A stretch of DNA of 64,000 bases from Lampris incognitus (taxonomy: Eukaryota > Chordata > Actinopteri > Lampriformes > Lampridae). Below the pieces are notes generated by a model. That model worked only from the letters and a program-made list of their open reading frames with translations, did no database searches and had not been told where the DNA came from. Shown piece after piece: positions 16,825 through 51,942 of the stretch (its first letter is position 1; the number at the start of each line of letters is the position of its first letter). Location of the stretch: positions 62,625,006 through 62,689,005 of the forward strand of contig NC_079216.1 of the NCBI RefSeq assembly GCF_029633865.1, in the 5' to 3' direction. Position numbers and translations under genes: made by a program.

Positions 16825-16998
16825 TGTAACGTGCATGGATACGTAGACACGTTGGCCGCTAGCTGACGAGTCTGACCCTTTAATCGAGCGGTCAGCGATG
16901 TCTGCCGCGGTGCGGGTTCGCGTCCCGGCCGCGGCAGTTCCTGTGCTTGCCTCCCGAATTCGCTGCAATACGTTTCTGTGAATCCCGCTACTTTTACA
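16825..16998 (+). mobile_element. Solo LTR-like element with internal tRNA-like promoter (relative of the 47-kb family)
   Basis: Begins TGTAAC and ends CTTTTACA. It shares with the LTRs at 45-47 kb the block GACACGTT-GCC-CTAGCT-AC, GTCTGACCCTTTA and CGAGCGGT-AG. The B box reads GGTTCGCGTCC (perfect at the invariant positions). The 3' half differs (CCCGAATTCGCT block), as in the fragment at 51827-51942, so it represents a second subfamily. No target duplication is visible. Confidence 0.5.
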
Positions 16999-45459: not shown

Positions 45460-45826
45460 GTAACCGGTTATTTTGTTGCCCGGTGCGGGATTCGATACGC
45501 GGTGTACTGCACCACAAGGCAACACCGCTAACCGCTCGGCTAAAGGGTCAGACCCGTTAACTAGGAGCTAACGTGTCTTATTAGTAGTTTACAGTAGTCT
45601 GCAGCCCTCCCCGGAAGCGCGCCCTCGCGCTTTGTTATTCCCGCGCTCCGAAGAGACTTCCGAGGATCTGCACACTTCCGGATCCCACCAATGTAACCGG
45701 TTACTTTGTTGCCCGGTGCGGGATTCGTTACGCGGTGTGCTGCACCACAAGGCGACATCACTAACCGCTCGGCTAAAGGGTCAGACCCGTTAGCTAGGGG
45801 CTAACGTCTGTTATTAGTAGTTTACA
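45460..45826 (-). mobile_element. Miniature LTR retroelement (TRIM-like), copy 1
   Basis: Two direct repeats, 45460-45593 and 45692-45826, about 90% alike and bounded by TGTAA...TTACA (the outer edge at 45460 has lost its last base). They flank 98 bp with no ORF. Read on the minus strand, the sequence after the LTR is TTGGTGGGATCC, i.e. the primer-binding site of copy 2 with an internal deletion. The internal end next to the other LTR is GGGGAGGGCTGCAGACTAC. Both LTRs carry TAGCCGAGCGG (A box). No target duplication is visible at this copy. Confidence 0.7.
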
Positions 45827-46053: not shown

Positions 46054-46100
46054 TGTAACCGGTTACTTTGTTGCGGGATTCGATACGGCGTGTGCGGCGG
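46054..46100 (-). mobile_element. LTR end fragment of the miniature LTR family
   Basis: TGTAACCGGTTACTTTGTTG joined to CGGGATTCGATACG, i.e. the LTR edge and B-box region with a short deletion. It then runs into unrelated GC-rich DNA. Confidence 0.6.
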
Positions 46101-47055
46101 TGGATGTGGCCTAGCCGTTGTTACCGGACACATTTTGGACGTTTGTGGCCCCCCCGCAGCGTAGCGCCTTTTTCCAGGGGCGGTGCGTTTTCCCGGTATT
46201 TCATTTCGTTTCACCACCAAAGCGAACTAGTGGGCCTGTCCGACAGCTTCCAACGGCCCCAATTTACTCGAGGGCCACGCGGCTTTAAAGTTCACTCGGT
46301 TGGTTTCGACCACATGGAGCACAATGGAGGATTATCAATCACACTGTGACGGCTCTGATTCCCCGGGGGGTGTGTGTGTGTGCGCGTGTGCGTGTGTTGC
46401 GCGTGTGTGCAAGCTGGAGAGAAACCCAAAGAGGATGTAACCTTAATCGAATTATAAAGTGAATCGTAACGCACATTGCAGAGCGTTAAGTGACACAACG
46501 GGGGCCATCGTGGTTCAGCAGCATTTGCGGGGCGAAGTGTCGCGTCCAAGTTACCGAGACGATTAAAACGAAACCTAAAATCCAATCAAAAAAAGGGGCG
46601 TCCGTTGCCTACCAACGCGGGGACTTCTGCGTTCGAATCCCCGTGGTGCCTCCGGCTCGGTCGGGCGCACCCTACAGACACAACGGGCCGTGTCTGCGGG
46701 CGGGAAGCCGGATGTGGGCGTGCGTCCTGGTCGCTGCACTAGCGCCTCCTGGGGTCGGTCCCCCTGGCGAAACTCCTCACCGTCGGGTGACAAGAAGCGG
46801 CTGGCGACTCCACGTGTATGGGAGGAGGCACGTGGTAGTGTAACCGGTTATTTTCTTGCCCGGTGCGGGCTTCGATACGGGTGTACTGCACCACAAGGCG
46901 ACATCACTAACCGCTCGGCTAAAGGGTCAGACCCGTTAGCTAGGGGCTAACGTGTCTTATTAGTAGTTTACAGTCGTCACCCTCCCCGGAAGCGCGCCCT
47001 CGCGCTTGTTATTCCCGCGCTCCGAAGAGACTTCTGAGGATCTGCACACTTCCGG

Positions 47056-47073
47056 ATCCCACCGCTGCCACCA
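47056..47073 (-). promoter_or_regulatory. tRNA-Leu-type primer-binding site
   Basis: Minus strand TGGTGGCAGCGGTGGGAT. The complement reads ATCCCACCGCTGCCACCA, which from memory is the 3' end (with CCA) of vertebrate tRNA-Leu(AAG). It lies one base inside the LTR, the standard location for priming reverse transcription. Confidence 0.75.
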
Positions 47074-47103
47074 ATGTAACCGGTTATTTTGTTGCCCGGT
47101 GCG

Positions 47104-47158
47104 GGATTCGATACGAGGTGTACTGCACCACAAGGCGACGTCACTAACCGCTCGGCTA
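47104..47158 (-). promoter_or_regulatory. tRNA-like internal pol III promoter (A and B boxes) inside the LTR
   Basis: Minus-strand A box TAGCCGAGCGG (47148-47158) fits the TRGCNNAGYNGG pattern. B box GTATCGAATCC (47104-47114) differs at two places from GGTTCGANTCC. Spacing is about 33 nt, as in tRNA genes. The same pair occurs in the other three LTRs of the two copies. Confidence 0.6.
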
Positions 47159-47290
47159 AAGGGTCAGACCCGTTAGCTAGGGGGCTAACGTGTCTTATTA
47201 GTAGTTTACAGTAGTCAGCAGCCCTCCCCGGATCGGCAGAGGGGGCGGGGCAGCGACCGGGACGGCTCGGAAAGAGTGGGGTAAGAAGAA

Positions 47291-51826: not shown

Positions 51827-51942
51827 AGTAAAGTAGCGTAGCGAATTCGGGGGGGACAACGCAACCACAGGAAGTGCCGCGGCCGGGAAGCGAACCCGTA
51901 TCGCCCGCACCGCAGGAGACGTCGCTAACCGCTAGAATAACG
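51827..51942 (-). mobile_element. Fragment of the tRNA-promoter LTR family (second subfamily)
   Basis: Minus strand: TAGCGGTTAGCGACGTCTCC, then GGGTTCGCTTCC (B box), GGCCGCGGCACTTCCTGTGG, CCCGAATTCGCTACGCTACTTTAC. This matches the 3' two-thirds of the solo LTR at 16825-16998. The 5' part is missing. Confidence 0.55.

Follow-up and report, generated by a model that had tools for sequence, protein, structure and literature searches.

Introduction

The window considered here, a stretch of 64,000 nucleotides from the fish Lampris incognitus (contig NC_079216.1), raises the question of what kind of element occupies positions 46839..47210 and which autonomous element could move it. In the first-pass annotation, this segment was read as a miniature LTR retroelement (TRIM) with a tRNA-type RNA polymerase III (pol III) promoter inside its LTRs, and a promoter of this kind in the LTR of a fish TRIM was proposed to be a new variant. 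This claim of novelty fails because exactly such elements, TRIMs with tRNA-like LTRs, have already been published under the name Helenus, fish being included (Kojima 2024, PMC10886601). According to the same paper, Helenus hosts comprise zebrafish and other Cypriniformes/Ostariophysi, a catfish, milkfish, sterlet, paddlefish and coelacanth; animal Helenus elements have 4-bp target site duplications (TSDs), and the primer-binding sites (PBSs) of vertebrate ones correspond to tRNA-His, -Leu or -Lys. Box B is conserved as GGTTC and box A as TRGCY plus YGG in most families, and the zebrafish element LTR-11_DR reaches 5575 LTRs and 2618 interiors and forms tandem arrays (PMC10886601). Pol III transcription of Helenus is unproven in the available text of that paper, in which the driver of animal Helenus elements is inferred from PBS similarity as belonging to the Gypsy superfamily only, and in which a relative of a Copia element is named as driver of one fungal Helenus. 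The annotated notion that SINE and LTR element are combined in a hybrid would fit Kojima's proposal for the origin of Helenus (PMC10886601). Set against the published description, the window element appears from its sequence to be a new family of this already described Helenus kind.

Anatomy of the window element

Positions 46839..47210 hold a complete Helenus-type TRIM of 372 bp (family A), organized as LTR-interior-LTR, nested within a SINE and delimited by its anatomy and by its copies in the genome. PBS, A box, B box and purine tract are all found on the minus strand, which is hence the sense strand of the element and the strand of all its parts given below. Direct-repeat comparison places the 5' LTR (136 bp, TGTAAAC...GGTTACA) at 47075..47210 and the 3' LTR (134 bp) at 46839..46972. 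Both start with TG and end with CA, and 3 of 134 aligned bases are substituted between them (2.2%), so that the near-identical LTRs of the first reading are borne out, as is the non-coding nature of the 102-bp interior (INT_A or iA, 46973..47074, defined by sequence and interior alignment), in which no coding capacity was found. One spacer base separates the 5' LTR from the 18-nt PBS TGGTGGCAGCGGTGGGAT (47056..47073). The CCA end of tRNAs is added after transcription, and the PBS is complementary to CCA plus the 3' end of a gene in the genome which we take to be tRNA-Leu; the match to this tRNA-Leu-type end is exact, as annotated. The corresponding 25-base gene end GTGGGTTCGAATCCCACCGCTGCCA has five exact and eight one-mismatch matches in the genome, one of the eight being a driver PBS (see below).

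Two further parts of the first reading needed adjustment. The purine tract GGGGAGGG (46980..46987) is present, with the same letters in 44 of 44 aligned interiors, but it does not abut the 3' LTR, from which 7 nt separate its end. The A box TAGCCGAGCGG does occur in both LTRs (47148..47158 in the 5' LTR, 46911..46921 in the 3' LTR), but the B-box-like GTATCGAATCC, annotated for each LTR, is found only in the right-hand, i.e. sense 5' LTR (47104..47114), its counterpart in the 3' LTR being GTATCGAAGCC (46868..46878); likewise, the spacing of 33 nt between A and B box holds for one LTR but amounts to 32 nt in the other. Overall, the element displays the TRIM features of LTRs with TG..CA ends, a length below 1 kb, no coding sequence, a PBS and a purine tract.

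The window contains a second, older copy of this TRIM at 45460-45826, also on the minus strand, whose LTRs are 94% identical to the window 5' LTR; its own LTRs are 8.1% apart and its TSDs do not match. Adjoining this older copy, a piece at 46054-46093 corresponds to the final 47 bp of LTR_A (79% match).

Insertion and copies in the genome

The window element is flanked by two copies of GTAG (left, 46835..46838; right, 47211..47214), recognized from the sequence and from genome copies. Once the element and one GTAG are taken out, the SINE is continuous: among 30 SINE matches from the window and the fetched loci, 14 cross the junction uninterrupted with 80-91% identity, two of these 14 lying within the window. 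The annotated target duplication inside a SINE that rejoins on removal is thus confirmed. A search of the 1.48-Gb assembly for the family's junction of LTR end and PBS yielded 1496 + 1460 = 2,956 matches (up to 2 mismatches in 29 nt), and the reversed control yielded none. The 40 best-matching loci comprise 44 match groups, including 38 LTR-interior-LTR units of 368-377 bp in 37 loci, two of them at the window locus; the other three loci hold longer arrays, one of which reads LTR-interior-LTR-interior-LTR. Exact 4-bp TSDs, in keeping with the fixed TSD length of TRIMs and the 4 bp of animal Helenus elements, flank 29 of 39 units in these loci (the 38 simple units and the LTR-interior-LTR-interior-LTR array; two longer arrays and three single LTRs excluded), compared with a mean of 2.5 and a maximum of 9 in 20,000 rounds of shuffling flanks among copies. 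The target sites prefer a central TA, with T at position 2 in 24 and A at position 3 in 22 of the 29 duplications. Divergence within the LTR pairs of the 38 units ranges from 1.5 to 8.1% (median 3.7%), which is no fair estimate of age, since the copies were chosen as those nearest to the window copy.

Two independent SINE insertions with varying spacing, the scenario that the first-pass annotation had set against its own reading, are ruled out by the constant unit length in 37 of the 40 best-matching loci and by the TSDs. The insertion marks of the window family are those of an LTR element. In one locus (L078, 1130-3009), LTR_A and interior_A units are arranged in tandem, with some LTRs only 4-5 bp apart. 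Family A hence resembles Helenus and especially LTR-11_DR, beside which it is set by description only, in being a TRIM below 1 kb with boxes in the LTR, a Leu-type PBS, 4-bp TSDs, thousands of copies and tandem arrays (PMC10886601). As in Helenus, the interior is better conserved between families than the LTR (PMC10886601).

tRNA-like boxes in the LTR

The A/B pair was assessed by comparing the combined box score of each LTR, on each strand, with 2000 dinucleotide shuffles, using 11-base A- and B-box motifs as we take them to read. For the window 5' LTR, none of the 2000 shuffles equalled the score on the sense strand, while the antisense score was equalled by 1981; the annotated tRNA-type boxes are accordingly a feature beyond chance. 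One copy each of other LTR families with the same PBS gave 13/2000 (B), 2/2000 (D) and 0/2000 (E), family E scoring 154/2000 on the antisense strand, and the LTR of the driver described below (LTR_C) lacks tRNA-like boxes, 956 of 2000 shuffles being as good. The box A of family A, TAGCCGAGCGG, has the TRGCY plus YGG pattern of Helenus, each letter of TAGCC being present in 96-100% of 85 LTRs. In contrast to Helenus, its box B reads GTATC and not GGTTC (PMC10886601), and the departing bases at the two sites concerned are carried by 96% and 95% of the 85 LTRs; GGTTC does occur in the box B of the D and E copies, GGTTCGCTTCC and GGTTCGATTCC, respectively. Across the four LTR families, invariant columns make up 4/11 of box A, 7/11 of box B, 12/33 of the stretch between the boxes, 21/52 of positions 1-52 and 7/29 of positions 108-136. 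Thus box B, and not box A, exceeds the remaining LTR. The window itself also contains remnants of family D at 16825-16967 (78% identity) and 51838-51940 (90%); this family, with GGTTCGCTTCC as box B, is a second Helenus-like one.

A functional tRNA within the LTR was rejected, as Rfam (E up to 10) and ARAGORN with default settings both came back empty, and the sequence indicates that the tRNA-like part of the LTR is a promoter-sized match only. Relaxed ARAGORN runs on single LTRs returned scores of 30-36 for several of them and are uninformative, because the driver LTR also scores. The alignment of LTRs to tRNA genes, suggested in the first-pass annotation, was made against 15 distinct genomic genes (Thr, Cys, Lys, Ala and Arg; no Leu or Val) and gave a divided answer: it is clear only for family E (0/300 shuffles as good, but on both strands) and better for D (12/300) than for A, in which it is weak (50/300).

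Several of these results would equally suit an ordinary pol II LTR, in which the boxes are relics or chance and the element is a conventional TRIM: no tRNA is recognized by Rfam or default ARAGORN, LTR_A shows no significant alignment to the fetched tRNA genes, and the bases by which its box B departs from GGTTC are nearly fixed. This interpretation appears rather unlikely, however, as the sense-strand A/B pair recurs in four LTR families, with GGTTC in two of them, and is absent from the driver LTR, as AATAAA is by eye missing from LTR_A and present in LTR_C, and as the same layout has been published as an element type (PMC10886601). We retain pol III transcription from the LTR as an inference from the sequence. 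TTTT is absent from the sense strand of the window LTR and interior, so that a pol III RNA would read through the 3' LTR into flanking DNA. Since first-strand transfer needs the R region alone, such read-through RNA would be compatible with the cycle proposed below.

A probable Ty3/Gypsy driver with the same primer-binding site

Searching for the PBS with another following base showed that several LTR families ending in ACA stand before the same 18 nt, TGGTGGCAGCGGTGGGAT being common to the LTR families A, B, C, D and E. Among these, LTR_C (253 bp, TGTAACC..CTCGGTTACA) contains AATAAA and has 285 PBS junctions in the genome (up to 2 mismatches in 25 nt). At two places, pairs of LTR_C known from their ends only have their LTRs about 6 kb apart and TSDs CTTG/CTTG and CTGT/CTGT; one of the two pairs spans 6,271 bp. 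Behind another LTR_C (L098, L108), 5.8 kb of sequence contain matches to an aspartic protease (2.4e-9), RVT_1 (1.5e-39), RNase H (6e-32), an integrase zinc-binding domain (5e-19) and rve (8e-15), together with a weak gag match (0.0014) below the cut-off; no 3' LTR_C was found in these 5.8 kb. The Gypsy order PR-RT-RH-IN was seen in the single driver copy examined (L108), in separate and broken frames. The sequence evidence suggests that driver C is a Ty3/Gypsy element of about 6.3 kb with a 253-bp LTR and a PBS in common with Helenus. The first-pass annotation had called for an autonomous element with the same LTR ends and primer site; driver C has the primer site, and its LTR carries no tRNA-like boxes.

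For TRIMs in general, no mobilizing candidate had been identified as of 2015 (PMC4558846), and the autonomous partners of plant Cassandra elements are termed unknown (PMC7215508). A named candidate exists for the plant SMART FRetro129, whose interior is 96% identical to that of the Copia element FRetro64 (PMC3281118). As in that case, a tiny LTR element and its candidate driver here have PBS and purine tract in common but not the LTR; unlike FRetro64, however, driver C has an interior that diverges from Helenus right after the PBS (three driver copies), and the link consists of chimeric insertions (PMC3281118).

Two side observations concern the driver. At C6:3053422-3053467, the PBS of a driver LTR_C runs on into the complement of the T-arm of tRNA-Leu, and a one-mismatch match of GTGGGTTCGAATCCCACCGCTGCCA at C6:3053443 overlaps the PBS at C6:3053422; such an extension is as expected if the tRNA primer had been copied too far during plus-strand synthesis. 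Furthermore, an LTR_C pair with only 243 bp between (L060, 1250-2001; TSD TTAG) represents an internally deleted driver derivative, the interior of which matches the driver 3' end in L134, L136, L147 and L148.

Chimeric insertions of driver and Helenus

In 8 of 12 sampled LTR_C PBS junctions, the sequence runs into Helenus interior A; three of the remaining four have a common driver-like start, and in the fourth only the first bases are alike. Genome-wide, 295 junctions of LTR_C with iA were counted (up to 3 mismatches in 40 nt, family B copies possibly being among the 3-mismatch rows), 81 of them exact, which corresponds to about 3-10% of the 2,956 Helenus PBS junctions, the tolerances of the two counts being different. 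Inspection of 28 such loci (8 + 20) revealed 15 complete LTR_C-iA-LTR_A elements with both outer ends readable and 13 that are truncated, tandem or inverted. Exact 4-bp TSDs flank 12 of the 15 complete chimeras, compared with a mean of 1.3 and a maximum of 7 in 20,000 rounds of shuffled flanks, and the other three lack an exact one; in the second batch, the script tally of 7/16 became 7/9 after seven loci with truncated or rearranged LTRs had been set aside. These hybrids of about 0.5 kb hence exist in at least tens of copies, and their TSDs imply that most complete ones integrated as units. Recombination artefacts were rejected on account of the TSD excess.

Ordinary reverse transcription does not produce elements whose two LTRs are unlike. 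Diversity among the Helenus parts of 18 chimeras (0.060) matches that among 22 ordinary copies (0.063), and the nearest neighbour is another chimera for 8 of the 18, with 7.95 expected. A single amplified chimeric lineage was thereby rejected; Helenus parts that are diverse and interspersed with ordinary copies indicate many events. From their structure, the chimeras look like the products of repeated intermolecular plus-strand strong-stop transfers at the common PBS, and such transfer between two elements would imply that Helenus and driver are packaged together. A switch between RNA templates does not suit the chimeras, because U3 would not be supplied at the 5' end. Plus-strand transfer at the PBS as such has been described (PMC3187697).

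Beside the complete chimeras, foldback forms with long terminal inverted repeats occur, in which LTR_C and positions 1-69 of interior_A are followed by an inverted LTR_C (L057 and L092/L107); TTTT stands on either side of L092, within T-rich sequence. At the 3' side of other chimeras, pieces of LTR_A are repeated (L118) or inverted (L123, L131), possibly as self-primed products.

The junction of LTR_A with driver interior was found ten times (up to 1 mismatch), a further 38 rows at 3 mismatches having a driver-like LTR end. Seven of the ten are composites of the form LTR_C-iA-LTR_A-driver interior, one with shortened iA, and in one (L112) LTR_A is fused into LTR_C. The far end was sought for four composites and found for two, in which a plain LTR_C preceded by driver sequence closes the element; both of these closed composites, known from their ends only, have matching TSDs (ATAT, ATAG). 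For the other two (L144, L146), the 601 bp fetched contained no driver sequence and the far end was not found. The composites resemble the three-LTR template-switch complexes with TSDs reported from Triticeae (Sabot and Schulman 2007, PMC1950507). The remaining two of the ten junctions are reciprocal candidates, consisting of LTR_A, a short driver interior and an inverted LTR_C, and the one with a readable far end has no TSD match. No complete reciprocal element LTR_A-gag/pol-LTR_C was found among the ten junctions. Modules also mix among families A, B, D and E (L050, L075, L087).

Since composite drivers begin with LTR_C-iA-LTR_A-driver interior and solo LTRs retain their TSDs, one driver variant with a compound LTR (C-iA-A) might alternatively have left the chimeras behind as solo LTRs. 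We regard this as very improbable: both composites with a known far end (two of four sought, seven composites known) close in a plain LTR_C whose TSD matches the 5' end, and the Helenus parts of the chimeras are scattered among those of ordinary copies. Ectopic recombination at the DNA level, joining driver and Helenus copies already in the genome, would be favoured by some 27 bp that both have in common (the LTR end CGGTTACA, the spacer and the PBS) and by the presence of tandem and rearranged copies, but it is very improbable as an alternative to reverse transcription, because recombination of two loci would leave unmatched flanks and not the matching outer 4-bp duplications seen in 12 of 15 cases.

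Proposed cycle

Taken as a whole, the data are probably best explained by a Helenus TRIM that cycles via the particle of driver C and gives rise to chimeras by strong-stop transfer, with a pol III start as the inferred first step. In this cycle, the tRNA-like A and B boxes would let pol III start in the 5' LTR, and the resulting RNA would pass the 3' LTR into flanking DNA. The Helenus RNA would then enter a driver C particle, in which tRNA-Leu would prime at the PBS and the driver reverse transcriptase would copy the template; copying in the driver particle is supported by the common 18-nt PBS together with the chimeras. The 4-bp duplications at mostly central-TA sites are observed, and it would be the driver integrase that inserts Helenus there. 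Occasionally, plus-strand strong-stop DNA of the driver, comprising the whole LTR_C (U3-R-U5) and the PBS, would anneal to the PBS end of Helenus minus-strand DNA. This annealing would yield the LTR_C-interior_A-LTR_A structure that is found with TSDs in the genome and that would integrate as a unit, and related switches could place a Helenus unit at the PBS of the driver. More specifically, it seems likely that a pol III-transcribed TRIM and its pol II-transcribed Gypsy driver are regularly co-packaged, and that intermolecular transfer at the PBS supplies the driver LTR to the 5' end of a few per cent of the insertions of this TRIM. If so, the swap could give a Helenus body a pol II LTR or lodge a Helenus unit in the driver genome. 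The one-way excess, with many C-iA-A elements and no complete A-gag/pol-C element found, would follow from kinetics, as driver strong-stop DNA would already be present at a stage when the Helenus minus strand, being short, is the only one extended as far as its PBS.

Relation to known systems and significance

In soybean, judging by the title of Du et al. 2010, LTRs are reportedly swapped between autonomous and non-autonomous partners, a comparable exchange, though in a plant and not in an animal. Cassandra resembles family A in being a TRIM with a pol III promoter in the LTR, putative in the present case, and in forming tandem arrays, but it is a plant element with a 5S promoter (PMC7215508, PMC10886601). 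The Triticeae complexes are, like the chimeras, integrated multi-LTR products of abnormal template choice during reverse transcription; the chimeras differ from these plant complexes in deriving from an animal TRIM, in their size of about 0.5 kb and in that their two LTRs are unlike and the junction lies precisely at the PBS (PMC1950507). Among the open-licence matches listed, titles and the beginnings of abstracts describe no chimeras of a TRIM or Helenus with its driver.

As a fish TRIM with a tRNA-like LTR, the window element is real and well formed but not the first case of its kind, and the added result is a specific Gypsy driver recorded in TSD-flanked hybrids. In the available text of the Helenus paper, the Gypsy superfamily is the only assignment given for animals and is based on the PBS (PMC10886601); here, in contrast, hybrid insertions tie the window family to one particular driver, and the genome itself points to the autonomous element that moves an animal Helenus. 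The hybrids record a meeting of the RNAs or cDNAs of both elements in one particle and, as such, constitute a natural record of errors in second-strand transfer. They also provide a sequence test that can be applied to any genome, namely a search for insertions between copies of one TSD in which the two LTRs are unlike and the junction lies at a common PBS.
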